Shown here piece after piece: positions 2,758-17,240 of a DNA stretch of 20,786 nucleotides (position 1 is the first letter of the stretch; the number at the start of each line of letters is the position of its first letter). Under the pieces are notes generated by a model. It did no database searches, was not told where the DNA came from, and saw nothing but the letters and a program-made list of their open reading frames with translations. A program made the position numbers and the translations under genes. Source of the DNA: Pirellulaceae bacterium (GTDB taxonomy: Bacteria; Planctomycetota; Planctomycetia; Pirellulales; Pirellulaceae); assembly GCA_013002105.1 (NCBI GenBank), contig JABDKS010000431.1, positions 1 to 20,786 on the forward strand, given 5' to 3'.

Positions 2758-2778
2758 GTTATCGATGCGGTGTTTGGT

Positions 2779-2833
2779 CGTGGATTTTGTCAAGAATCCT
2801 TGCGAGGGATCGATCTTTGACGAGGTCCACTAC
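2779..2833. repeat. Paired inverted repeat, copy A (upstream of the efflux operon)
   Basis: The left arm at 2779-2799 resembles GTGGATCTTGTCAAAGATCC with about four mismatches. The right arm at 2812-2833 resembles GATCTTTGACAAGATCC plus ACTAC with two mismatches. The arms face each other across about 12 bases and could fold into a hairpin. The copy lies in the 245-base divergent gap between the efflux operon and the dehydrogenase, 22 bases upstream of the adaptor ATG, so it could lie in that operon's leader or promoter. It is the most diverged copy. Confidence 0.8.
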
Positions 2834-3002
2834 GCCGGGATTGTGGTGTTCGTAGGGAATACTGGACGTTGGGGCCGGTCTTACAGCAAATTCCCGAAAA
2901 CAATTTTTCTGACTTGCTGTATGGCCTTCTGATTTGGCCGGTAAACCAATTGGTGAGCCACGATCGTGGCAAATGAAGCATCCATCTTTCGAGGACAAGC
3001 AA

Positions 3003-3752
3003 ATGACATTCGACGTCGCAAACAAGACGGTATTGGTGACCGGGGCAAACCGCGGTATTGGAAAGGCGATCCTGAAGGAAGCACTTGATCGCGGTGCAGC
3101 GAAGGTCTACGCGGCGGTGCGGAACATCCACTCCGTCGACCCGCTGGTAGCCGAGTACGGTGACCGCGTGGTACCCGTTCGCGTCGACTTAGAGGATCCG
3201 GAATCAATTATTGCCGCGGCTAAGACGGCAACGGATGTTGATGTTGTTGTCAACAACGCAGGTGTGTTGCAGCGAGCATCCTCGCTGGATCGACATGCGA
3301 TCGACTCGCTGCAGCATGAAATGAACGTCAATGTCTACGGATTGATCCGCGTTGCACAGGCGTTTGCTCCCGTCCTGAAGGCAAACGGCGGCGGCGCGAT
3401 TGCACAACTCAACAGCGTTGCGTCCGTTAAGAATTTTTCAGATTTCGCGACCTATTGCGCATCGAAGGCAGCGAGTTACTCGATCACACAGGGCTTGCGT
3501 GATTCGCTACAAGCACAAGGAACTCAGGTGGTCAGCGTTCATCCCGGTCCGATTGCAACGGACATGGCAACCGATGCGGGCTTGGAGGACGGCGCCGAAT
3601 CACCCGCTTTGGTTGCGACGGCGATTTTCGACGCCATCGCTGAAGGTCATTTCCATGTGTGGCCCGATTCGACAGCCAAGCAGGTTGGTGGAGCCTATCA
3701 GGGTTTTGCAGAAAACGTCGTCGAAACAGAAATGCAGGAAAGTGTGGGGTGA
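3003..3752 (+). CDS. Short-chain dehydrogenase/reductase (classical SDR)
   Basis: NAD(P)-dependent oxidoreductase of 249 residues, the usual classical SDR length. The Rossmann cofactor motif TGANRGIG is at residues 13-20 and NNAG at 84-87. The catalytic set is Ser138, Tyr151 and Lys155 (YCASK), with HPGPIATDM after it. No signal peptide is present, so it should be cytoplasmic. An ATG at 2934 would add 23 residues. The ATG at 3003 is preferred because GAGGA at 2991-2995 stands at proper spacing and the SDR fold starts right after it. Substrate is not predictable. It is transcribed divergently from the efflux operon, with repeat copy A between them and repeat copy B starting 11 bases after its stop, so it is probably a single-gene unit. 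Confidence 0.94.
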
Positions 3753-3763
3753 GCGCATGTCGC

Positions 3764-3851
3764 AGTGGATCATGACAAAGATTCCTGCCAATGCCGTCGC
3801 GGATCTTGTAGGAGATCTGTGCGCGACTGGATCGTTAACAAGATCCACTAC
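3764..3851. repeat. Paired inverted repeat, copy B, with an extra central unit
   Basis: The left arm 3764-3785 reads AGTGGATCATGACAAAGATT then CC. A central unit 3801-3818 reads GGATCTTGTAGGAGATCT. The right arm 3829-3851 reads GGATCGTTAACAAGATCC followed by ACTAC. All three are variants of the family core GGATCTTTGACAAGATCC or its complement. The copy fills much of the gap between the dehydrogenase stop and the sigma factor gene, so it could act as a 3' hairpin for the former or sit upstream of the latter's promoter. Confidence 0.82.
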
Positions 3852-3937
3852 AGCCGACACTTGTTCGGGTCGTCTTCGCGGTTTGACAATCAGGGGATAC
3901 AATGGTGAATCTCCTTTGTCACCCCCCGAGGCGCCCC

Positions 3938-4543
3938 ATGGCCGAGTCCCCACAGACGCGAGCGACGTTGTTGTTGCGACTGCGCGATCGTGGTGATGGG
4001 GATGCGTGGAGTGCATTTGTTCGCGACTACGGCCCGATGATCTATCGGTTCGTCCGTAGTCGCGGGTTGCAAGATGCAGATGCTGCGGACGTCGTGCAAG
4101 ACGTCATGCGAAGCGTTGGTTTGGCGATCGACCGTCTGGACTATCAAAAAGAGAAAGGCGGTTTCCGAGCTTGGTTGTTCACCATCACGCGCAATAAGTT
4201 ATCGACTTATTTTGAAAAACGAAATCGAATGGGACCGATCGGCAACGACACGGCGCAACACGAAATGCTCGGTCAAGCGAGCAGTGATCGAAGCGAGCTT
4301 GATGAACAATGGGAACTTGAACACAGACGGCAACTCGCGGCGATGGCCATGGAAACGTTAAAACCGACCATCGAACAAAAAACATGGGCCGCGTTTGAGC
4401 TGACTGCCATCCAAGGGCGGTCGGCTCAGGAGGCCGGGGAAACAATCGGCTTGTCAAAGGGCGCGGTGTACGTTGCCCGCAGCAGAGTGACGGCCAAATT
4501 GAGAAGCGAAATCGAACGACTGCTCGCCGAAGAAGAGCCCTAG
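3938..4543 (+). CDS. RNA polymerase ECF-type sigma-70 factor
   Basis: Sigma factor of 201 residues that should redirect RNA polymerase to a specific promoter set. Region 2 covers about residues 8-95: a start MAESPQTRATLLLRLRDRGD, then DADAADVVQDVM and the RAWLFTITRNKL segment used in promoter melting and -10 recognition. Region 4 covers about residues 145-195 with a helix-turn-helix (SAQEAGETIGLSKGAVYVAR) for -35 binding. The ATG at 3938 has GAGG six bases upstream. An ATG at 3902 with its own AGGGG would add 12 residues, but planctomycete relatives usually begin at the SPQTR motif. The next gene, 110 bases on, is a Ser/Thr kinase with an anti-sigma-like zinc finger; sigma-kinase pairs of this kind are a known planctomycete ECF arrangement. 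The two are probably one regulatory unit. Confidence 0.95.
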   Translation: MAESPQTRATLLLRLRDRGDGDAWSAFVRDYGPMIYRFVRSRGLQDADAADVVQDVMRSVGLAIDRLDYQKEKGGFRAWLFTITRNKLSTYFEKRNRMGPIGNDTAQHEMLGQASSDRSELDEQWELEHRRQLAAMAMETLKPTIEQKTWAAFELTAIQGRSAQEAGETIGLSKGAVYVARSRVTAKLRSEIERLLAEEEP

Positions 4544-4561
4544 CCAATAGAAGTATCACCA

Positions 4562-4630
4562 TAGTGGATCTTGTCAAAGTTCCCGCACACTGAAACCGCA
4601 TCTCATCGGATCTTTGACAAGATTCACTAC
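4562..4630. repeat. Paired inverted repeat, copy C (between the sigma factor and kinase genes)
   Basis: The left arm at 4562-4583 reads TAGTGGATCTTGTCAAAG then TTCC. The right arm at 4608-4630 reads GGATCTTTGACAAGATTC then ACTAC. Each arm has one mismatch to the family consensus. The loop between them is 24 bases. The copy occupies most of the 110-base gap between the sigma factor stop and the kinase ATG and ends 23 bases before the kinase start, so if the genes are co-transcribed the hairpin would form in the intercistronic RNA. Confidence 0.9.
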
Positions 4631-4653
4631 CTGACGTTTGATGAAGTCTAATC

Positions 4654-6900
4654 ATGTCTGTTCCATCTGCCTGCCCAACGCCCGAACAACTCAGTGGCCT
4701 GATCCGTGGAACCTTGTCCGAACAAGATAACGCTCGGCTGACCGATCATGTCGGAAATTGCACCACGTGTCAGACGAACTTGCAGTCCGCGGCGACAGGC
4801 GAAATCCCGATCGTTTCTTTGGTCTCAGACGTTCAGGGCTTGAACCCGCCGAACGAATCGAACTATTGGCCGGCCATGACCGATATCGAAAGAGAACGGT
4901 CTGAAGAGAACGCGGTGGATCCGGTGAAAGATCCCCACAACGGATCTTTCACAAGATCCTCTACACCAGCGGACGATCTCGACTTCCTTGAACCGTCCGA
5001 TGATTTGGCCTATCTCGGCAAGTTGCATCACTTCCAGATCTCGCGTGTGATCGGACGCGGTGGCATGGGGATCGTGCTGGAAGCTTTTGATCCGCATTTG
5101 CACCGCAATGTTGCGATCAAGGTACTCAATCCGCAGTTCCAAGCCAACGACATCGCCAAGCAGCGGTTCTGTCGCGAAGGACGCGCTGCTGCCGCGATCT
5201 CGCACGAACATGTCGTACCGATGTACCAAGTCGCCAAAGCTGACCAGGGCGAAGTCGCGTACTTGGTAATGCAATTGATCGAAGGCGACACGTTGGAGAA
5301 TCGCTTGCGCGACGGCCAGCCTTTGCCCCCAAACGATGTCGCACGGATCGGTATGCAGATCGCCGCCGGCCTTTCGGCGGCGCACAAGCGTGACATGGTT
5401 CACCGAGATATCAAGCCAGCGAACATCATGATTGAATCGGAAACCAATCGTGTGAAGCTGACCGACTTCGGCCTCGCACGTGCAACCGACGATGTAAAGC
5501 TGACGAAGACCGGGATGGTTACGGGAACACCGCTATACATGTCGCCCGAGCAAACGTTGGGTGAAACTGCCGACGAAAGGAGCGATCTGTTTTCGCTCGG
5601 CGCAGTCATGTACGAAATGGCGACCGGTGTGGCACCTTTCCAAGCGCCGTCGGCGCTCGGCGTGATGCAAAATATCATGAACGTCAATCCCAAGGCACCT
5701 CACACAATTAATGCTGGGATCACACGTCCGCTGTCGAATCTGATCATGTCACTGCTGACAAAGAATCCGGTCGATCGGCCTGAGTCGGCGTCGGCTGTCG
5801 CAACTGCGCTGGCGGCAATCGTCAACGAATACGGCCCCATCTCGCCACTACAAGTTCCAGCAGTGGCGGCGAAAGAGGTGAAGAAACTGTCGGGCAGCTA
5901 TCGACGATTGGAGCGGCGCTGGGTGATGGCCGCTTGGCTCGCCGCCGCGTTTGGATTGATAAGCATGCTGGCTGCGGGTTTCCTGATGTCGCGATCGGAC
6001 ACTGGCGACGACTTCCCATCGGTCGTGCTGCCCGATAATCCAGGCACGGTTTGGTCCGTCGACTTCGCACCTGATGGCAAGCGACTTGCTGCCGCGATCG
6101 AAGACGGTAGCGTACGGATTTGGGACATCGACAACCAACAGTTATTGAAGAATTTTAATGCGCACCGCGGCATCGCCTGGATGGTCGCCTATCACCCGAC
6201 GCGACCGCTGCTGATGACCAGTGGAGACGATGCGATGGTCAGGCTTTGGGACTCGACGACTTTTGAATTTGTAAAAGAGTGGAAAGCCGCCAACGCCGTC
6301 CGGAGTGCCGCGTTTTCACCCAACGGCAACCGGATTGTCGCCGGCGACCGAGAAGGAACGATCCATGTCTATGACATCGATAGCGGTGAAGAAGTCGCGA
6401 ACAAGAACCACCCCGGCTCGATCCTAGGGATCGACTACTCCAGTGACGGCAAGTTGATTGCGAGTGTCGGAAGCGGCAAAGTCGTCCGCATCTTTGACGC
6501 GGAGACGTTGGACGAGCGAAACACGTTGACTGGTCACGATGGCCCGATCTACGCCGTCAAGTTCGCTCCGCAAGGTCCGCTTGTCGCATCGGTCGGTTGG
6601 AATAAGAACATTCGTATATGGAACACGGAAACCGGTGAAGAGGTAGAACGTCTCGTCGGCAGCGAAGGTGACATTTGGGGCGTTGCGTTCTGCAGTGATG
6701 CGACACATTTGGTGACCGGCGAATACGGCGGCGCGGCCCGCGTCTGGGAATTGGCAAGTGGCAAGGCCGTTACGACACTCCGTGGGCATACTTCTTCTGT
6801 TCACAACGTTTCTCTGGACCCCATCGCCCATCGCATCGCCACAAGTAGCCGTGACGGAACGATCCGAGTCTGGGACATGAGCAGCGTGGCTGCAAAGTAA
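4654..6900 (+). CDS. Membrane Ser/Thr protein kinase with N-terminal anti-sigma-like zinc finger and C-terminal WD40 propeller
   Basis: A 748-residue signalling protein. Residues 1-45 resemble a zinc-finger anti-sigma domain with His32, Cys36 and Cys39 (HxxxCxxC). A linker follows, part of it (88-104) encoded by repeat copy D. The Hanks-type kinase spans about 126-390: glycine loop IGRGGMGIV (133-141), Lys156, Glu175, catalytic HRDIKPAN (250-257), DFG (271-273) and SPE (297-299). All catalytic residues are present, so it should be active. A membrane helix lies at about 423-445, followed by seven WD40 repeats (about 455-745; blade ends such as VRIWDI, VRLWDS, IRIWNT, IRVWDM), predicted outside the cytoplasm by topology. 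It sits just downstream of the ECF sigma factor, which its zinc finger may bind; phosphorylation of that sigma or its release in response to a ligand of the propeller is inference. No strong Shine-Dalgarno precedes the ATG. Confidence 0.97.
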   Translation: MSVPSACPTPEQLSGLIRGTLSEQDNARLTDHVGNCTTCQTNLQSAATGEIPIVSLVSDVQGLNPPNESNYWPAMTDIERERSEENAVDPVKDPHNGSFTRSSTPADDLDFLEPSDDLAYLGKLHHFQISRVIGRGGMGIVLEAFDPHLHRNVAIKVLNPQFQANDIAKQRFCREGRAAAAISHEHVVPMYQVAKADQGEVAYLVMQLIEGDTLENRLRDGQPLPPNDVARIGMQIAAGLSAAHKRDMVHRDIKPANIMIESETNRVKLTDFGLARATDDVKLTKTGMVTGTPLYMSPEQTLGETADERSDLFSLGAVMYEMATGVAPFQAPSALGVMQNIMNVNPKAPHTINAGITRPLSNLIMSLLTKNPVDRPESASAVATALAAIVNEYGPISPLQVPAVAAKEVKKLSGSYRRLERRWVMAAWLAAAFGLISMLAAGFLMSRSDTGDDFPSVVLPDNPGTVWSVDFAPDGKRLAAAIEDGSVRIWDIDNQQLLKNFNAHRGIAWMVAYHPTRPLLMTSGDDAMVRLWDSTTFEFVKEWKAANAVRSAAFSPNGNRIVAGDREGTIHVYDIDSGEEVANKNHPGSILGIDYSSDGKLIASVGSGKVVRIFDAETLDERNTLTGHDGPIYAVKFAPQGPLVASVGWNKNIRIWNTETGEEVERLVGSEGDIWGVAFCSDATHLVTGEYGGAARVWELASGKAVTTLRGHTSSVHNVSLDPIAHRIATSSRDGTIRVWDMSSVAAK
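4915..4964. repeat. Paired inverted repeat, copy D, inside the kinase coding sequence
   Basis: The left arm 4915-4934 reads GTGGATCCGGTGAAAGATCC. The right arm 4942-4964 reads GGATCTTTCACAAGATCC then TCTAC. The loop is seven bases. Both arms differ from the other copies at the same paired position (GTC to GTG on the left, GAC to CAC on the right), so complementarity is kept. The element is translated in the kinase frame as VDPVKDPHNGSFTRSST, residues 88-104, within the disordered linker between the zinc finger and the kinase domain. Confidence 0.88.
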
Positions 6901-6923
6901 CAAAGCAATACATCACCACCGAG

Positions 6924-7014
6924 GTAGTGGATCTTGCTCAAGATCCTCGTCATTCGGATCTGGAACAAGATCCACTACGGAACTGTCATTCGGATCTTTG
7001 ACAAGATCCACTAC
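6924..7014. repeat. Paired inverted repeat, copy E, with a tandemly duplicated right arm
   Basis: The left arm 6924-6946 reads GTAGTGGATCTTGCTCAAG then ATCC. The first right arm, 6956-6978, reads GGATCTGGAACAAGATCC then ACTAC. The second, 6992-7014, reads GGATCTTTGACAAGATCC then ACTAC. The two right arms are part of a 36-base tandem duplication (6949-6984 and 6985-7020, about 30 of 36 positions identical, both opening GTCATTCGGATCT). It fills the gap between the convergent kinase and pirin genes, 24 bases after the kinase stop and 7 bases from the pirin stop, and could serve as a two-way transcript end, although no T-run follows. Confidence 0.9.
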
Positions 7015-7021
7015 GCGGCTG

Positions 7022-7888
7022 CTAATCTGGTGTATCAAGATGGCCCATCTTTCCGGCTTGGTAGTCACGGATCGCTTCGTGGATCTCTGCGCGTGTATTC
7101 ATCACGAAGGGTCCTTGCCCCACCACCGGCTCACCGATGGGCTGCCCGGTCAAAACCAGAATTCTTGCGGCGGATTCGCAGCGGATTCCGACGGTTTCGC
7201 CATCACGTTCTAACAAAGCCAACTCGACCGCTTTGACGGGTTCGTCGTTCACGATTGCGCTACCTGACTGAACGACCATCATCGAGGTGTGGCCGCCGGG
7301 AACGTCGAATTGGGTCGATGCACCAGCGTTCAATTGCAGATCCCAAACATTGATCGGCGTAAACGTCGATGCGGGACCTTTGGACTCGCGAAACTCACCT
7401 GCGATCACTCGGGCTGTGCCGGCATCACCAGCCAGCGAAACTTGAGGAAACTGGTCGGCCAATAGATCCTGGTACTTCGGCGGCGACTTTTTGTTGACAG
7501 CGGGCAGATTCACCCACAATTGAATCATTTCCAACGTTCCACCTTCTTGGGCGAATCGCCTGCTGTGGAATTCTTCGTGAACGATTCCCGACGCGGCCGT
7601 CATCCATTGCACGTCGCCAGAACCAATGGTTCCGCGACTGCCGCTGGAATCGCGATGTTCTAATTCACCGTCGTACAAAATCGTCACCGTCTCGAACCCG
7701 CGATGCGGATGCTCGGCCACGCCACGCTTTGCCTCGTTTGGAGCAAATTCGTGAGGTCCGGCATAATCAAGAAGCAGAAACGGATCGAATTCCGATCCAT
7801 CGGCATAGGAAAACAAGCTTCGTACAGGAAAACCGTCGCCGACCCAGTGTTGTGGAACATCGCGAACGATTCGCTTGATCTTTTTCAT
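7022..7888 (-). CDS. Pirin family protein (cupin-fold, metal-binding)
   Basis: A 288-residue bicupin protein, the normal length for bacterial pirins such as YhhW. The N-terminal cupin holds HPHRGFETVTIL with His60 and His62 and GIVHEEF with His104 and Glu106. These four match the iron ligands His56, His58, His101 and Glu103 of human pirin, so the metal site is intact. The C-terminal cupin (about residues 180-280) includes the usual segment ending GQPIGEPVVGQGPFVMNT. Family members act as redox sensors or as quercetin dioxygenases; which applies here cannot be told. No signal peptide is present, so it is cytoplasmic. It is transcribed toward the kinase gene with repeat copy E between their ends. 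The ATG at 7888 (MKKIKRIVRDVP) is the only sensible start. Confidence 0.95.
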   Translation of the reverse strand: MKKIKRIVRDVPQHWVGDGFPVRSLFSYADGSEFDPFLLLDYAGPHEFAPNEAKRGVAEHPHRGFETVTILYDGELEHRDSSGSRGTIGSGDVQWMTAASGIVHEEFHSRRFAQEGGTLEMIQLWVNLPAVNKKSPPKYQDLLADQFPQVSLAGDAGTARVIAGEFRESKGPASTFTPINVWDLQLNAGASTQFDVPGGHTSMMVVQSGSAIVNDEPVKAVELALLERDGETVGIRCESAARILVLTGQPIGEPVVGQGPFVMNTRAEIHEAIRDYQAGKMGHLDTPD

Positions 7889-9716: not shown

Positions 9717-12700
9717 TCATCGTGACGCCGGTTGCTGCCTATAATCGCTGATTGTTTTTAGCGTCATTTCGAGCGATTCATTCAGCACTGGCAGTTGTCG
9801 GCTTAGCGATGCGTCATCGGAATCCTCTGCGATCTTTTCGAGAGATTCTAAAGTTGCCGCGAGTGGCATTGCGCCGATGGACATTGCTGCACCCTTGAGC
9901 GTGTGCATGGCACGCATCACCGACTTGATGTCTGCGTTTGCGGTCGCGACTTGGATGTCGGTGTGGAGCGTTTTGCTTTCGGCTTCAAAAGTCTTGAACA
10001 ATTCGATCAGCAGACCGCGGTCATTGCCAAAAGAGTTGGACAACCGTTCCCACGCGATTGTCTCGCCGTCGGTTCGCTTTGATTCAACGATTGCGGGCTC
10101 AGTGCCCGATGTTGGATGGGAATGGGTATCCGGTGGAAAATCAATCAAATGAGAATCTGAAGGCGACGCGTCCTGCCGAATCGCTGATTCCGATTGGTGT
10201 CGATTGGCTATCGGATCGGATTCGTCGGCCGTGTTGATGTCGCGATTAGGTGCGGGGTCATTGCCAGAATCTAGCGATGTCGACTCCGGAACCTTGGGCT
10301 GGGGCGGGTCGTTGGGCGACTGAGTGTTCTGTAACAGTCCGGCGAGTGCTTCAAAAAGGAGTTCGCGACGAATTGGCTTGGGAACATAGTCATCCATGCC
10401 GGCCTCGAGGCATTGCTCGCGGTCTCCCTTCATCGCATTCGCGGTCATCGCGATGATCGGTACGTGCTGGCCGGTTGTTTCTTCGGCTTTGCGAATGGTT
10501 CTTGTGGCTTCGATCCCGTCCATGATCGGCATTTGCACATCCATCAACACGACGTCATACGAGTCTTTGCCAAGAGCATCGACTGCTTCTTCGCCATTGT
10601 TTGCGATCATCACGTCGTGGCCAAATTGAGAGAGCAGTCCCACCGCCAGTTTCTGATTTACCAGATTGTCTTCTGCAAGCAAGATTTTCAGTTTGCCGAG
10701 ATCAAAATCTGTATCCGAGCGGGGCACTTCATGGTCTTCGGGCCCATTGACGCCGAGTGCACGGACGATCGAGTCAAACAGCTCGGATTGTTTCACCGGC
10801 TTCATTAGCCGGTCGGCGATGCCCAGTTCCAGTCTACGATCCTTGTCACCCAATCGTCCGCCCGACGTGAGCATGATGACGGGTGCGTTTTCGATCAGTG
10901 CATCCTGCCGCAAACGCTGAACGAAATCAAACCCGTCTTGCCCGGGCATGTTCACATCCGTGACAACGAGGCCAAATGGTTTCCCCTCGTTTTCGGCGAA
11001 TTCGATTTCGGCGATCGCCTCATCGACCGATTCCGCGAGCACAGCTTGCATCCCCCAACTGGACAGCATTTCCTTGAGTATGAAACGGTTGGTTTCGTTA
11101 TCATCAACGATCAAGACATGGGTTCCGCCGACGATGACCACACCGCGTGATTTACTCTCCTGCACATCGTCCGGCGCAACGCCCATCATGGCTGTGAAAT
11201 AAAAGCGACTTCCCTGTCCCAGATCACTGTCAACCCAGATTGTCCCACCCATCATGCTGACAAGCCTTGACGAGATCGTCAGTCCAAGACCAGTTCCACC
11301 GAACTGGCGTGTCGTCGACGCGTCTGCTTGTTCAAACTCGCGGAAGATCGATTCGCATTTTTCCTTGGGAATCCCGATTCCCGTATCCCGAACGCAGACA
11401 CTCAGGCGGTATTCATCGTCGATCGCGGTCTGCAATTCGACTTCGACAACGACTTCACCTTTCGTCGTGAACTTAATTGCGTTGCCAACAAGATTGATAA
11501 TGATCTGACGCAGACGGCCAGGATCACCAACCAAAAATTTTGGGATTTCAGGATCGACGCGGAACGCTAGTTCGAGATTTTTGGCATGCGCACGTACCGC
11601 GAGCGCCTTCATCGTGTCACCAAGATTCTCGCGAAAATTGAATGGGATGCTGTCAATATCCAACATGCCGGCTTCGATTTTCGAAAAATCCAGGACGTCA
11701 TTGATGATCGTCATCAGCGAGTCCCCCGACTCCTGAATCATCTTCAAATAACCACGCTGCGACATATCGATTTTGGTATCTAGCAGCAGTTCCGTCATTC
11801 CGATGATGGCGTTCATTGGCGTGCGAATTTCGTGACTCATGTTGGCCAGGAATTCGCTCTTGGCTCGGTTGGCGTTATTAGCGGCATCTCGCGCCGACAT
11901 CAACTCCTCGGCGGCCAATTTCCGGCCAGTAATATTTCGGCTGATACCGACAATCCCGACGACTTCGCCTTCCGGGTTCCGCAGTGGCACCTTGGAGCTT
12001 AGATACCAATACTGGGTACCGTCAGCCTGTTGCGAACATTCCTCCTTGTCGATCATCGCTTCGCCCGACCGGACCACAATTTGATCGTCGGCGACGTAAC
12101 CGCAGGCAAGCTCGGCCGGCAGAAAATCGTAGTCTGTCTTGCCTTTGATCTGGTCAACCGATTCCAACCCAAACAGTTGCAGCACTGCAACATTGCACGT
12201 CACGAAGCGTCCGAAGCGATCCTTGACGTAAATCAAATCCGGAATATTGTCAGAAATCGTTTTCAACAAGTCGCGTTCGCGTTCCAGTTCGAGCTCCGCT
12301 CGCATCTGACTGGTCACATCTCGGGAGATTCCGAACGTTCCTATGATCAAGCCCGATGGATCGCGAAGCGGCATCTTGGTGGTCGAACACCACGTATCAC
12401 CTCGGTCCGGCCAAGTCTCTCGTTCGACTTTGCCAACAACAGCCTCGCCCGTCTCCATGATCCGACGTTCATCTGCCATCGCGTTACGGGCGTGTTCTTC
12501 GCCAAAAAAATCGGCATCGGTTTTGCCGATCGCGTCGGCCGGATCGTCCAATTGGAATAACTTCGCATGTGCGCGACTGATGCGAATGAATCGGCTCTGT
12601 TTGTCTTTGAAATAGACAGCATCAGGAACATTGTCCAGCATGGTGTCCATCAAAAACTTAGTTGACTCCAGTTCGCGCTCGGTTTGTCGATGATGACTCA

Positions 12701-13055
12701 CGTCCCAAAAAATGATTTGGATTCCGTTGACGCTGCCCGATGAAGAGTGTATCGGAACCTTCAGCACTTCCACGTATCGCCGTTTCCCTTCCGACGTCTG
12801 GTGTTCTTCGATAGCATGCGACGGCTGGCCGCTTTTCATCACGCGGTGGTCGCTGTCGGAATAGTCTTTGGCTAACGTCGCGGGAAAAAGATCAAAGTCG
12901 GTTTTACCGATGACCTCGTCGGCGGCTAACCCGAATGACCGACAAAACGCGTCGTTGGCGTATTGGATTCGGCCCTTTCGATCTTTTCGAAGGAGGTACA
13001 AAGCACCGTGGTCGAGAAGTCGGCGATGCGATTGGGTTATATCACTGTTGTCCAT
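9717..13055 (-). CDS. Soluble hybrid sensor histidine kinase: PAS x3, HisKA, HATPase, two receivers, HPt
   Basis: A 1112-residue phosphorelay protein. Three PAS domains lie at about residues 15-125, 135-250 and 262-378, each with a GKTD motif (50, 177, 305). HisKA has the phospho-acceptor His408 in SHEIRTPMNAIIGM. The ATPase domain (about 510-625) shows the N box NLVGNAIKFT, DTGIGIP and GGTGLGL. Receiver 1 (about 646-765) has Asp700 and Lys752. Receiver 2 (about 789-905) has Asp839 (LMDVQMPIMDG) and Lys893. A polar linker leads to an HPt domain with His1051 in MHTLKGAAMSIG. All phosphotransfer residues are intact. No membrane helix or signal is present, so it senses a cytoplasmic signal, perhaps through PAS ligands. 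No separate output regulator lies nearby, so the HPt must pass phosphate to a protein encoded elsewhere. The ATG at 13055 begins just before PAS1. Confidence 0.97.
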   Translation of the reverse strand: MDNSDITQSHRRLLDHGALYLLRKDRKGRIQYANDAFCRSFGLAADEVIGKTDFDLFPATLAKDYSDSDHRVMKSGQPSHAIEEHQTSEGKRRYVEVLKVPIHSSSGSVNGIQIIFWDVSHHRQTERELESTKFLMDTMLDNVPDAVYFKDKQSRFIRISRAHAKLFQLDDPADAIGKTDADFFGEEHARNAMADERRIMETGEAVVGKVERETWPDRGDTWCSTTKMPLRDPSGLIIGTFGISRDVTSQMRAELELERERDLLKTISDNIPDLIYVKDRFGRFVTCNVAVLQLFGLESVDQIKGKTDYDFLPAELACGYVADDQIVVRSGEAMIDKEECSQQADGTQYWYLSSKVPLRNPEGEVVGIVGISRNITGRKLAAEELMSARDAANNANRAKSEFLANMSHEIRTPMNAIIGMTELLLDTKIDMSQRGYLKMIQESGDSLMTIINDVLDFSKIEAGMLDIDSIPFNFRENLGDTMKALAVRAHAKNLELAFRVDPEIPKFLVGDPGRLRQIIINLVGNAIKFTTKGEVVVEVELQTAIDDEYRLSVCVRDTGIGIPKEKCESIFREFEQADASTTRQFGGTGLGLTISSRLVSMMGGTIWVDSDLGQGSRFYFTAMMGVAPDDVQESKSRGVVIVGGTHVLIVDDNETNRFILKEMLSSWGMQAVLAESVDEAIAEIEFAENEGKPFGLVVTDVNMPGQDGFDFVQRLRQDALIENAPVIMLTSGGRLGDKDRRLELGIADRLMKPVKQSELFDSIVRALGVNGPEDHEVPRSDTDFDLGKLKILLAEDNLVNQKLAVGLLSQFGHDVMIANNGEEAVDALGKDSYDVVLMDVQMPIMDGIEATRTIRKAEETTGQHVPIIAMTANAMKGDREQCLEAGMDDYVPKPIRRELLFEALAGLLQNTQSPNDPPQPKVPESTSLDSGNDPAPNRDINTADESDPIANRHQSESAIRQDASPSDSHLIDFPPDTHSHPTSGTEPAIVESKRTDGETIAWERLSNSFGNDRGLLIELFKTFEAESKTLHTDIQVATANADIKSVMRAMHTLKGAAMSIGAMPLAATLESLEKIAEDSDDASLSRQLPVLNESLEMTLKTISDYRQQPASR

Positions 13056-13706
13056 GCCATCGGGCTTCGGATTTGATTGGGGTTCGCGGCTGATTGAAAA
13101 AATCTAATCTGTGATCACGGTTCACTTGCTCTGCTGGAAGTGGCCACAACAGACAATGCATCATAATTGTTCGTAAACAGCCATGTCGGCAGCCGTTTGG
13201 AATCATCCATTTTAGTCATCTCGCGAGCAGCGAATCACAGGATTCTGGATGGGGACGATCAGTAATAGGTATTTCGCATCCCAGTCGTGAAAAACCGTCC
13301 AGCGCAAAGCTGCAGGCTACCCGATTATTTTCTCGCAACGCCTCTGACGGGATCGCTTGGACTGAAATCGCCGTTTCCATTTCATCGCGAGGGTAGCGGC
13401 ATCGATTCCGCCTGAGCAGGTTGACGCAGCGTCGATGATCGAGTCCGCATACATATGAGCGATCGGCATCGGAGAGTGGACCGGCCTCATTTCGATTGAC
13501 GACGCAGTGGTCTGAATGATCAGAGCCCCAAATGCGTAATGATCGCGGAGTGATCGAGGACGATGATTTGCGATTTTCACACGGTATTGGGCCGTGGGCG
13601 TTGTAATTGTGTTGCCCACTTGCTCGTCGCGTGATCGCCAATGCGGTACAAGTAGTACTTTCGGGTGTACATTTCAATTCACTTTCCAAGTTCGATCGAC
13701 CGCAAA
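13056..13706. other. Divergent intergenic region, no gene supported
   Basis: This 651-base stretch lies between the divergent histidine kinase and propeller genes and should hold both promoters. The reverse strand contains two overlapping open frames (13216-13689 and 13317-13619, 157 and 100 codons). Neither shows a domain, signal peptide or convincing start. The 100-codon frame (starting MGNTITTPTAQYRVKIANHR, ending in a basic tail) is the better candidate for a small hypothetical or decayed gene, but support is weak. A small GTAC-N5-GTAC inverted pair lies near 13647-13659, about 50 bases before the propeller gene. Confidence 0.5.
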
Positions 13707-15413
13707 ATGACTTTTTCTTTCAGACTCTGTATCGTTTGGTTGGCACTCTCCAGCGTCCCTGCGTTGGGTGACGACTGGCCTCGATTTCGCGGAACCGCTG
13801 GCTCTGGCGTTGCAACCGATTCGGACGCATTGCCAACTACTTGGTCACCGACTGCGAATGTCGCTTGGACGACACCGCTACCGGGTCCGGGTGCGTCCAG
13901 TCCGATCATTGTCGGCGGAAAAGTGTTCGTGACCTGCTATTCCGGTTATGGATTGTCGCAAGAGAATCCCGGCGACATCAACAATCTCGTGCGGCATCTC
14001 GTCTGCGTCGATTTAGAAACAGGCACGAAGCTTTGGCAGAAAGATGTGAAAGCGGCGTTGCCCGAAGATCCTTACTCAGGGATTGGAGTCACGGCTCACG
14101 GCTACGCGTCGCACACGCCAGCATCAGACGGAACCAACGTGTATGCCTTTTTTGGAAAAGGTGGCGTGTACGCTTTCGATATGGATGGCAAGCAATTGTG
14201 GCAAGCCGACGCGGGCAAAGAATCTGACCCGGCAAAGTGGGGGTCGTCATCAAGTCCTGTTGTCTACAACGACACCGTCATTGTCACGGCTTCGGCCGAA
14301 AGCCAGTCCATCATTGGATTGGACAAGGCAACCGGAAAAGAGCTATGGCGACAAGAGGCGAAAGGGCTCGATGGCATGTGGGGAACGCCGACGTTGGTCA
14401 CGATCAATGATGAACGCACGGATCTGGTGATGTGTGTTGCCAAGGAACTGTGGGGACTCGATCCCGAAACAGGTAAGTTGCGATGGTACGCCGATGCGAC
14501 CGGATCGCAACACGCGTACTCGAGTGTCATCGTGGACGCAAAGCGTGTGTTTGCATTCACCGGTCGTGGTGGCGGTAGCATTGCTCTGGATGCGGGCGGT
14601 AGCGGAGACATTAGCGATAGTCACACCGTATGGACGGGAACCGAAAACGCTAGTTTTGCGTCACCGGTGCGGCATCAGTCAAAACTGTACGTCGTCTCCC
14701 GTGGCGTCTTGACTGTCGTGGATGCCGAGTCCGGTGATCGGTTGCAACAAATTCGGCTCAGAGGTGCCAAGCAAACCGGCGGTCGTTTCGGTTCGCTTGA
14801 TTATCCGTCACCGGTTGTCGTAGGGGATCGTCTGTATTCTTTGAACGGAAGTGGACAGATGTTCGTGTTCTCTCTGGGCGAGTCGGTCGAGCAGTTGGCG
14901 GTCAATGAGATTACGACGGACAAGGAAACATTTTGGGGTTCGCCAGCCGTCAGCAACGGACGAATGGTTTTGCGAAGCTCCAAGAACTTGTACTGCATTG
15001 CTGACAAGGGCGACGCCGTCACGCCATCGCAAGGGGATCTGGCCCAAGCAGACGTTTCAGATCCATCAGATTCGGTCGACGAGGCACGTTCTGGCGACCG
15101 GTCGCAGGGTGGTGGACGTCCTGGTGGCGGCGGAAATGGTCGAGGACAATTCGACCCGATGAGCATGTTCAATGCTGTAGACGCCAACAAAGACGGTGCG
15201 GTGTCGATGGCTGAATTGGAGGGAAATCGGATGGCGGACCGCTTGAAGACGCTCGACAAAGATGCAGACGGTGTCATCACCAAAGACGAGTTCCGAACCG
15301 GGGTTTCGTCGCTGTTTAGTCGCGGCGGTGGTGGCGGTGGCGGAAATCATGGCAACCGAGGTGACGACGCTCGTCCCGATCGACCGCAACGCCCAACCGC
15401 TGCGGACAGTTGA
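13707..15413 (+). CDS. Secreted PQQ-type beta-propeller protein with C-terminal EF-hands
   Basis: A 568-residue exported protein. The signal peptide MTFSFRLCIVWLALSSVPALG is followed by DDWPRFRG, the common start of planctomycete PQQ-like (outer membrane assembly BamB-type) propellers. Repeated blade motifs such as ETGTKLWQKD, ATGKELWRQE and ETGKLRWYAD run to about residue 440. A Ser/Gly-rich linker leads to two canonical EF-hand loops, DANKDGAVSMAE (about 492) and DKDADGVITKDE (about 517), then a glycine run and a basic/proline tail. The calcium-binding loops look intact. The frame is open from 13665, but the ATG at 13707 places the signal peptide at the N-terminus and was chosen. The function of such proteins is mostly unknown; no quinoprotein dehydrogenase active site was recognised. 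A hairpin follows at 15459. Confidence 0.92.
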   Translation: MTFSFRLCIVWLALSSVPALGDDWPRFRGTAGSGVATDSDALPTTWSPTANVAWTTPLPGPGASSPIIVGGKVFVTCYSGYGLSQENPGDINNLVRHLVCVDLETGTKLWQKDVKAALPEDPYSGIGVTAHGYASHTPASDGTNVYAFFGKGGVYAFDMDGKQLWQADAGKESDPAKWGSSSSPVVYNDTVIVTASAESQSIIGLDKATGKELWRQEAKGLDGMWGTPTLVTINDERTDLVMCVAKELWGLDPETGKLRWYADATGSQHAYSSVIVDAKRVFAFTGRGGGSIALDAGGSGDISDSHTVWTGTENASFASPVRHQSKLYVVSRGVLTVVDAESGDRLQQIRLRGAKQTGGRFGSLDYPSPVVVGDRLYSLNGSGQMFVFSLGESVEQLAVNEITTDKETFWGSPAVSNGRMVLRSSKNLYCIADKGDAVTPSQGDLAQADVSDPSDSVDEARSGDRSQGGGRPGGGGNGRGQFDPMSMFNAVDANKDGAVSMAELEGNRMADRLKTLDKDADGVITKDEFRTGVSSLFSRGGGGGGGNHGNRGDDARPDRPQRPTAADS

Positions 15414-15458
15414 AATCGGATCGCCTGACGGAGGATGTCATTTCTCGATTACCATCAA

Positions 15459-15566: not shown

Positions 15567-17240
15567 ATGAATGGCAAGGCGACGCGGCAGAGCAGCGGTC
15601 AACTGAACATGATGATTCGGCCAGTTGCCTTGGCATTGATGCTGTCAGGCCTTTGTGTCGGCGATGAACCGCGCGACCGGACCGGCCCGCACCCGAAAGT
15701 TGCCGGTGCATTGATAAAAATTCATGAGGAAATTGCTGACGGACCGTTTGATGCCAAATGGCAGTCACTGGAAAACTACAAGATTCCGCAATGGTACAAG
15801 GATGCCAAATTCGGGATCTTCGTGCACTGGGGTGCGTACAGTGTTCCGGCGTTCGGAAGTGAATGGTATCCGCGGCAGATGTACATCGATACGGAGCGGC
15901 GGGGCGACAACTTTTTTCAGTACCACTTGCGCACCTATGGTCCGCACAAAACGTTTGGCTACAAGGATTTTATCCCCGAGTTCAAGGCTGAAAAATTTGA
16001 TCCGTCGACATGGGCCAAGCTCTTTAAACAGGCCGGCGCTCGCTACGTCATCCCGGTTGCCGAGCACCATGACGGTTTTCCGATGTACGATTGTTCTTAT
16101 ACGCGATGGAACGCATCCCAGATGGGGCCCAAGCGTGACGTGATCGGGGAACTGGCCCAAGCCGTGCGAAAAGAGGGCATGAAGTTCGGTGTCAGCAGCC
16201 ACCGAGCGTTCAATTGGGTGTACTACGTTCGCAACGAGAATTTTGACAACGCTGATCCGCAGTATGCGGACCTGTACGGGCGTCCGCTGCCGCATTTATT
16301 CGCACCCGATGCCGCGGACTACAAAACGAACTTTCCACCCCAGGACCAGCAGTTCAAGGATGACTGGCTGGCTCGTTCTTGCGAGTTGATCGACAAATAT
16401 CAACCGGATGTTTTCTGGTTTGACTTTGGTATCACACCAGGGCTCGAAGAAGCGACCTACGATGACAATCCCTTCGCTGACCATCTGAAACAGTTCGCCG
16501 CCTACTACTACAACCAGACGTCAAACTACTACAACCAGACGTCAAACAAAGCGGCCGGCCTGGGAGTCATCAATTACAAATGGGGCGCGTTCCCGGAGAA
16601 CGCGGCCGTATTGGACAAAGAACGCTCGAAAATGGCGGAGATTCGTAAACCGTTTTGGCAAACGGACACCGCCGTGAGTTCCAGTTCGTGGGGCTATACG
16701 CAAAATCAACGTTACAAGACTCCCGACCGTCTGGTGGACGACCTGGTCGATATCGTCAGCAAAAACGGTTGCCTGCTGTTGAACGTTGGGCCTCGCTCGG
16801 ACGGAACAATCCCCGAACAGGACCAAGCGATATTGAAGGCGATTGGTGGCTGGTTGCAGATAAATGGTGAAGCGATCTATGACACGACCTACTGGAAAAC
16901 GTTTGGCGAGGGCCCCACGGCCGTCTCCACCGGACATATTTCTGAGTCGAAGGATAAGCCATTCGTCGCTGAGGACCTGCGTTTTACATCGCGGGACGAC
17001 GTCCTTTATGTGACGGGATTGAAATGGCCCAAGCTTGGAAAGATTACGGTCAAGTCACTCGCTAGCGATAGTCAACTCTACCCAGAACAGATCGCATCGG
17101 TCGACTTGCTGGGCACGAAAGAGAAACTCCAATGGACGCGTGGCGAAAACGGTCTCACCGTACAATTACCCGCAAAATCGCCGTCGGAATTCGCATACGT
17201 CTTGAAAGTAAAATCGCAGGGATCCGGAGTCGAAAAGTAG
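15567..17240 (+). CDS. Alpha-L-fucosidase, glycoside hydrolase family 29, secreted
   Basis: Retaining exo-fucosidase that would release alpha-L-fucose from glycans such as algal fucans. From the ATG at 15567 it has 557 residues; a signal peptide core (MMIRPVALALMLSGLCVG) starts at residue 15, and ATGs at 15609 and 15612 are alternative starts. GH29 landmarks are FGIFVHWGAYSVPAFGSEWY, the EHHDGF segment with His167-His168, and the probable nucleophile Asp286 in DVFWFDFGI. KNGCLLLNVGPRSDGTIP closes the catalytic barrel and a beta-sandwich domain follows. A perfect 21-base tandem duplication (16506-16547) makes YYNQTSN occur twice at residues 314-327. It follows the propeller gene by about 150 bases on the same strand, and a sulfatase remnant lies just downstream, consistent with use of sulfated fucose polymers (inference). 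Confidence 0.93.
   Translation: MNGKATRQSSGQLNMMIRPVALALMLSGLCVGDEPRDRTGPHPKVAGALIKIHEEIADGPFDAKWQSLENYKIPQWYKDAKFGIFVHWGAYSVPAFGSEWYPRQMYIDTERRGDNFFQYHLRTYGPHKTFGYKDFIPEFKAEKFDPSTWAKLFKQAGARYVIPVAEHHDGFPMYDCSYTRWNASQMGPKRDVIGELAQAVRKEGMKFGVSSHRAFNWVYYVRNENFDNADPQYADLYGRPLPHLFAPDAADYKTNFPPQDQQFKDDWLARSCELIDKYQPDVFWFDFGITPGLEEATYDDNPFADHLKQFAAYYYNQTSNYYNQTSNKAAGLGVINYKWGAFPENAAVLDKERSKMAEIRKPFWQTDTAVSSSSWGYTQNQRYKTPDRLVDDLVDIVSKNGCLLLNVGPRSDGTIPEQDQAILKAIGGWLQINGEAIYDTTYWKTFGEGPTAVSTGHISESKDKPFVAEDLRFTSRDDVLYVTGLKWPKLGKITVKSLASDSQLYPEQIASVDLLGTKEKLQWTRGENGLTVQLPAKSPSEFAYVLKVKSQGSGVEK
16506..16547 (+). repeat. 21-bp perfect tandem duplication within the fucosidase gene
   Basis: The unit TACTACAACCAGACGTCAAA plus C occurs twice in direct succession without a mismatch, in frame, encoding YYNQTSN twice. 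Exact identity, including synonymous positions, points to a recent slippage duplication. It falls after the nucleophile strand, probably in a surface loop. Confidence 0.95.

Follow-up and report, generated by a model that had tools for sequence, protein, structure and literature searches.

The window, by which we mean the whole stretch of 20,786 nucleotides of Pirellulaceae DNA that was analysed, contains a gene for a Ser/Thr protein kinase of 748 amino acids, in which the Pfam kinase domain (residues 128-382) is followed by WD40 repeats. The N-terminal HxxxCxxC stretch of this kinase reads like a zinc-finger-like domain, which is a putative name, and no zinc finger occurs among the best 25 of the 51 Pfam families for the window. 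Short palindromic repeats (REP units) are present on both sides of the kinase gene and, as a copy that is referred to here as copy D, within it. The following features are relevant:

2777..2833, no strand assigned: degenerate REP dimer at the 5' end of the minus-strand membrane-fusion gene (repeat scan)
3763..3851, no strand assigned: intergenic REP units at 3763-3784, 3796-3818 and 3829-3851 (repeat scan)
3902..4543, plus strand: sigma-70 region 2 protein (Pfam PF04542), the conserved upstream neighbour of the kinase, in an order kept in genomes G147, G155 and G157
4561..4630, no strand assigned: intergenic REP dimer in the gap between the sigma factor and kinase genes, with a 24-nt spacer and GTCA loops (repeat scan)
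4654..6900, plus strand: host gene of copy D, encoding a Ser/Thr protein kinase whose C-terminal part has WD40 repeats (ORF; Pfam PF00069, PF00400; relatives at most 82% identical)
4912..4934, plus strand: REP unit forming the left arm of copy D, with GCGG as a degenerate GTAG tag and a GTGA loop (matches the GTGA-loop consensus at 19/23)
4935..4941, no strand assigned: spacer of copy D, 7 nt (versus 10 or 11 nt in 32/38 dimers of G147)
4942..4964, minus strand: inverted REP unit forming the right arm of copy D, also with a GTGA loop (matches the GTGA-loop consensus at 22/23)
6924..7014, no strand assigned: intergenic REP dimer (6924-6978) and inverted unit (6992-7014), 3' of the kinase (repeat scan)

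The REP clusters of the window are confined to 4.3 kb (2777-7014) around the sigma factor-kinase pair, and between 7.0 and 20.8 kb no REP unit was found at ≤3 mismatches. The ORFs at 3600-4016 (minus strand) and 6934-7236 (plus strand) consist partly of REP sequence (AVVDLVNDP..RSPTRSA, IWNKIHY/IFDKIHY) and are probably spurious, and the membrane-fusion ORF has its listed start, 2793, in a REP unit. Elsewhere in the window, an exact 21-nt tandem duplication in the alpha-L-fucosidase ORF (16504-16545) yields NYYNQTS twice.

The order short-chain dehydrogenase - sigma factor - kinase is common to the window, Novipirellula aureliae (G147), G155 and G157. The gap between the sigma factor and kinase genes measures 110 nt in the window, including the 70-nt dimer, ~37 nt in N. 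aureliae and 9 nt in G155. In its present form the intergenic dimer has no counterpart in either of these genomes, whereas the coding copy of the window is shared with N. aureliae. In the latter genome this gap (L124, ~15405-15445, minus strand) contains TTTTAACAAGATC, which matches the REP right arm over 12 nt and holds the stop codon of the sigma factor gene; it is possible that this is a REP remnant which supplies the stop codon.

The REP family in the Pirellulaceae

The repeat unit measures 23 nt (GTAGT-GGATCTT-nnnn-AAGATCC), and each arm of a dimer forms a hairpin of its own, in which a 7-bp stem carries a loop of 4 nt. At ≤2 mismatches it occurs in 62 of 241 Pirellulaceae genomes, with a maximum of 383 matches in N. 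aureliae, while a reversed control pattern gave 0 matches in the same 241 genomes. If the loop is left free, N. aureliae has 230+268 matches (498), a number that exceeds that of the units since both strands of one hairpin can match. Because only 1 of 392 genomes in an even draw across the phylum, searched with a stricter pattern, contained a match, the REP unit appears to be concentrated in the Pirellulaceae.

In 400 kb of N. aureliae, made up of stretches selected for the kinase or for their REP or Y1 content, the stem is near-invariant and the loop variable. The base preceding TAG, which was left out of the search pattern, is G in 113 of the 126 matches obtained there, which include some hairpins seen again on the other strand. 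A larger sample of 1.6 Mb (80 stretches, 20 selected on the same grounds and 60 taken regardless of hits) yielded 171 units, each counted once, of which 150 start with GTAG; their loops are GTTA (94), GTCA (37), GTAA (8), GTGA (8) and others. Spacers of 10 or 11 nt were found in 32 of the 38 inverted dimers of this sample (one per cluster).

The tag of GTAG REPs, which is GTAG or GTGG, stands 0-2 nt 5' of the hairpin, and here a single nucleotide (T) precedes the stem. The stem (GGATCTT/AAGATCC) and its 4-nt loop agree with a fully paired stem of at least 7 nt and a loop of 2-5 nt. However, the first four stem nucleotides, GGAT, include two G/C rather than at least three. Rules for stem and loop and for G/C are used for searching in the portion of PMC6006769 available to us, which also gives 4 of 66 known REPs as breaking its rules, and we therefore regard the rule on the first four nucleotides as heuristic and not as defining. 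Inverted doublets with a preferred spacing in extragenic space, as in REPINs, are present as well. The anatomy of unit and dimer is the one that the accessible parts of PMC3733652, PMC6006769 and PMC3116915 give for GTAG REPs and REPINs. REP units or dimers of N. aureliae are also arranged in satellite-like tandem arrays that repeat every ~33 nt or ~112-115 nt:

L132, 14840-15324: tandem REP array
L133, 7112-7365: tandem REP array
L134, 8125-8980: tandem REP array

Our own crude codon-model ORF caller places 79.3% of the bases of the 1.6 Mb of N. aureliae in genes. Of the 57 REP clusters in this sample (at ≤2 mismatches, so that the kinase copy of N. aureliae, with 3 mismatches, falls outside), 51 lie between genes, 3 overlap a gene and 3 are contained in an ORF call. 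The last three, namely a tandem array, L144 and a unit located at a start codon, are all doubtful and, therefore, translated copies are rare in N. aureliae. In L144 a REP dimer lies in frame in the N-terminal part of the ORF at 12575-13711 (minus strand), reading VVDLVKDPPAQGSLTRSTT; an ATG further downstream seems to be a better start, which would probably put the repeat upstream of the true start, and this dimer was not counted as a translated copy. The reading phase used by the kinase (phase 0) is open in 56 of the 72 strand readings of 36 dimers, against 7/72 and 15/72 for the other phases, and 15 of the 36 dimers combine a length that is a multiple of three with an open phase 0.

A REP dimer in the kinase linker

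Copy D spans 53 nt (4912-4964) and consists of two GTAG-tagged REP units in inverted orientation, a REPIN/BIME-like dimer. It lies in frame in the kinase gene as residues 87-104 and starts at a codon boundary (codon 87). An earlier, sequence-only reading of this DNA had recognized a repeat copy in frame at residues 88-104 of the kinase, and the match of the two arms to the consensus (19/23 and 22/23) bears this out; the 17 codons of these residues (4915-4965) encode VDPVKDPHNGSFTRSST, but the full element is slightly larger and begins at codon 87. The peptide is presumably synthesized as part of the kinase. The likeness to the repeat is far beyond chance, which is excluded by a wide margin: the window linker scores 23, against a mean of 0.1 (sd 2.1) for codon shuffles, and 0 of 60 shuffles score as high.

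The closest kinase, P0002 (82% identical), is that of N. aureliae, where it is encoded on contig C6. A scan of the 26 best-matching kinase loci at ≤3 mismatches, in which L042 may not reach the linker, gave one hit, which is in N. aureliae, at the aligned codons and in the same phase. This copy has the usual 10-nt spacer and 3 mismatches, retains GTAG where the window has GCGG, and has in common with the window copy a T-to-A change at position 5 of the right arm. Its left loop, ACGA, is two transitions away from GTGA and its right arm is poor (12/23). The N. aureliae linker scores 14 (codon-shuffle mean 0.3; 0 of 60 as high), and the chance of 16/19 fixed positions at one given place is 1e-7. 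The shuffle test covered 21 of the 26 kinase loci (L040, L042 and L055-L057 are without anchors), and the 20 others score -4 to 4, 18 of them being matched by 11 to 60 of their own 60 shuffles. A possible signal in L033 (G155), with a score of 4 that is reached by 2 of 60 shuffles, was not counted; L045 also scores 4 (0/60).

The segment might instead be ordinary ancestral linker coding sequence with a chance likeness to the repeat, since the linker varies among aligned homologues and often contains a DP or DTP motif. At the sensitivity of these tests this explanation is refuted by the shuffles, which reach neither the window score nor that of N. aureliae, and by the low scores of the 20 other loci, and we give it practically no credence. 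Distant orthologues with the same residues and no repeat-like DNA, which the earlier reading had named as the observation that would point to ancestral coding sequence, did not turn up among the loci examined: N. aureliae alone clearly matches, and its DNA is repeat-like.

Because the degenerate copy at the same codons of N. aureliae keeps GTAG, the insertion most likely took place before the split between the window lineage and N. aureliae. In the first kinase tree the window groups with P0003-P0005 and not with P0002 (83/90), a grouping that would imply that the element was lost or fully decayed in P0003-P0005. A tree made without the linker does not settle the position of the window relative to P0002, and their pairing is not rejected (p-AU 0.233). 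Trees that do not clearly unite the two could be explained by two independent insertions, or by renewal of the window copy through gene conversion from another genomic copy, as could the fact that the window copy is much nearer to the consensus (5 of 46 arm positions differ, versus 16 of 46 in N. aureliae). However, the two copies occupy the same codons in the same phase and have the right-arm T-to-A change in common, a difference in branch length suffices for the difference in rate (binomial p 0.11), and the other scanned kinase loci have no copy at ≤3 mismatches. We consider such a double or renewed origin unlikely.

It seems very probable that a REPIN/BIME-like GTAG-REP dimer entered the linker region of the kinase whole and in its open phase before the window lineage and N. 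aureliae separated, and that it has been tolerated there while decaying. The dimer would have arrived as one unit from a source element that was already of the GTGA-loop type, which would account for the matching change in both arms. We propose that it was kept, probably neutrally, because the linker tolerates the peptide, and decay after insertion would have gone further in N. aureliae.

The length of the linker bears on how the element was accommodated. Counted between the YW anchor and the start of the kinase, it has 51 residues in the window and P0002 and 52 in P0003 and P0004, and in the 92 of 120 homologues that could be measured (28 are without anchors) it ranges from 43 to 97 residues, with a median of 64. 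Without the element (53-56 nt) the linker would come to ~33 residues, which is under the shortest homologue (43). The earlier reading had suggested dating the insertion by an element-free orthologue from which about 17 residues are precisely absent; no examined homologue has such an absence, and the linkers of the nearest relatives are equal within one residue, or longer. A plain insertion should have lengthened a typical linker, which did not happen and, therefore, replacement, or insertion together with deletions, is needed. That the element itself became the linker, an ancestral segment being lost and the REPIN taking its place, is possible, though we regard it as doubtful.

The matching loops of the two arms

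Copy D has GTGA in both arms where the other copies in the window have GTCA. The sequence-only reading had noted this matching GTC-to-GTG change, which is real, and had called it compensatory, which is not supported: the changed position sits in the tetraloop of each REP hairpin, and GTGA is a standing loop variant of the REP family, found in 8 of the 171 units of N. aureliae and in both arms of 2 of its 33 dimers. In 20 of 38 N. aureliae dimers both arms have the same loop type, against 14.5 expected from shuffles (p 0.0043), and such an excess is expected if dimers copy as units; in 10 dimers from other genomes agreement is 4 against 2.5 expected, an excess that is not significant (p 0.20). 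The other origin that had been suggested for the paired change, a copying step that moves both arms together, fits the agreement in N. aureliae and its two GTGA/GTGA dimers.

Selection for the hairpin had also been put forward; it could act in kinase mRNA or DNA (through pausing, stability or recombination), with the GTC-to-GTG pair as a compensatory change. It would agree with the strong fold of the window copy as RNA (-26.4 kcal/mol, z -6.18) and with the presence of GTGA in both window arms. However, the five further differences in the window arms (left 2, 3, 11 and 12; right 5) are all one-sided, with 0 of 5 compensated, and dimers with GTGA in both arms already exist as a variant of the family. 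The kinase copy of N. aureliae folds as RNA no better than shuffles (-14.8 kcal/mol, z -0.63; 46 of 200 shuffles are at least as good), and in it 3 positions are changed in both arms (two alike) against 10 that are one-sided; the hairpin has thus been lost in that lineage while the kinase gene was retained. In addition, compensatory changes are common in REPINs generally, according to the accessible part of Bertels and Rainey (PMC3116915). Selection for the hairpin is, therefore, very unlikely, and the one-sided changes together with the unfolded copy of N. aureliae argue for inheritance of a paired element followed by decay.

Mobilisation and related systems

A search of 13 genomes for Y1-transposase genes gave 105 matches, distributed over 12 of them. 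None of these 105 matches has a REP unit within 1 kb, 14 loci being cut short, mostly by contig ends, and the nearest REP units lie at ~1.5 kb (L059) and ~1.8 kb (L204). A cognate Y1 gene flanked by the same REP, as in the REPIN/RAYT system, was not encountered among the 105 matches in 13 genomes, and linkage yielded no cognate RAYT. Nor did a full insertion sequence ending in a REP unit emerge: the masked inner flanks of 177 units in 1.6 Mb of N. aureliae gave 0 pairs, and an unmasked all-against-all comparison gave 537 pairs which, among the pairs listed, lie no more than a few hundred bases away from tandem REP arrays. We infer that the dimer may have been mobilised in trans by a Y1-type enzyme (RAYT), for which GTAGTGGATCTTGTTAAAGATCC would be a candidate single-stranded substrate.

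In the part of Di Nocera et al. (2013; PMC3733652) available to us, GTAG REPs are described as mostly intergenic, with some located in ORFs as dimers or groups encoding 20-30 residues, and intragenic copies are read as coding sequence in several species. R. baltica is there among the genomes with several REP families, and the section on intragenic REPs, in that part, names no kinase. The Pirellulaceae family has in common with these GTAG REPs the 5' GTAG tag, the short stem, the small loop, the head-to-head dimers and the mostly intergenic location, although the comparison with the 24 families of that paper is by description and not by consensus. With REPINs, as characterized in the accessible part of Bertels and Rainey (2011; PMC3116915), it shares the inverted REP pair, the preferred spacing, the extragenic bias and the covarying arms. 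It differs from them in that no linked RAYT was found here and in its spacer of only 10-11 nt.

The comparison that the sequence-only reading drew with the Rickettsia palindromic elements is supported in so far as a palindromic repeat has been inserted in frame and is read as coding sequence. However, those elements are ~150 bp long with nearly half of their copies in ORFs (PMC10969869, in part), whereas intragenic copies are rare here, and the 57 clusters of N. aureliae (3 inside ORF calls) gave no sign of frequent insertion in frame into ORFs so as to yield a common peptide. The units of the R. conorii elements carry CGTC and not GTAG tags (PMC3733652, in part). The kinase copy was not found in titles and abstract openings of the literature on REPs, REPINs and planctomycete repeats. 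Since in-frame repeats are known from other bacteria, copy D is a new, well-documented example and not a new kind.

Our results describe an in-frame REP dimer that can be followed in two species, and an abundant REP family that is, in these searches, concentrated in one family of Planctomycetes, with a mobiliser that is unlinked in the genomes examined. Copy D also shows how a paired difference between arms arises without compensatory mutation. If replacement of an ancestral segment is true, mobile palindromes can remake disordered linkers in signalling proteins while leaving their length unchanged, enabled by the open phase.
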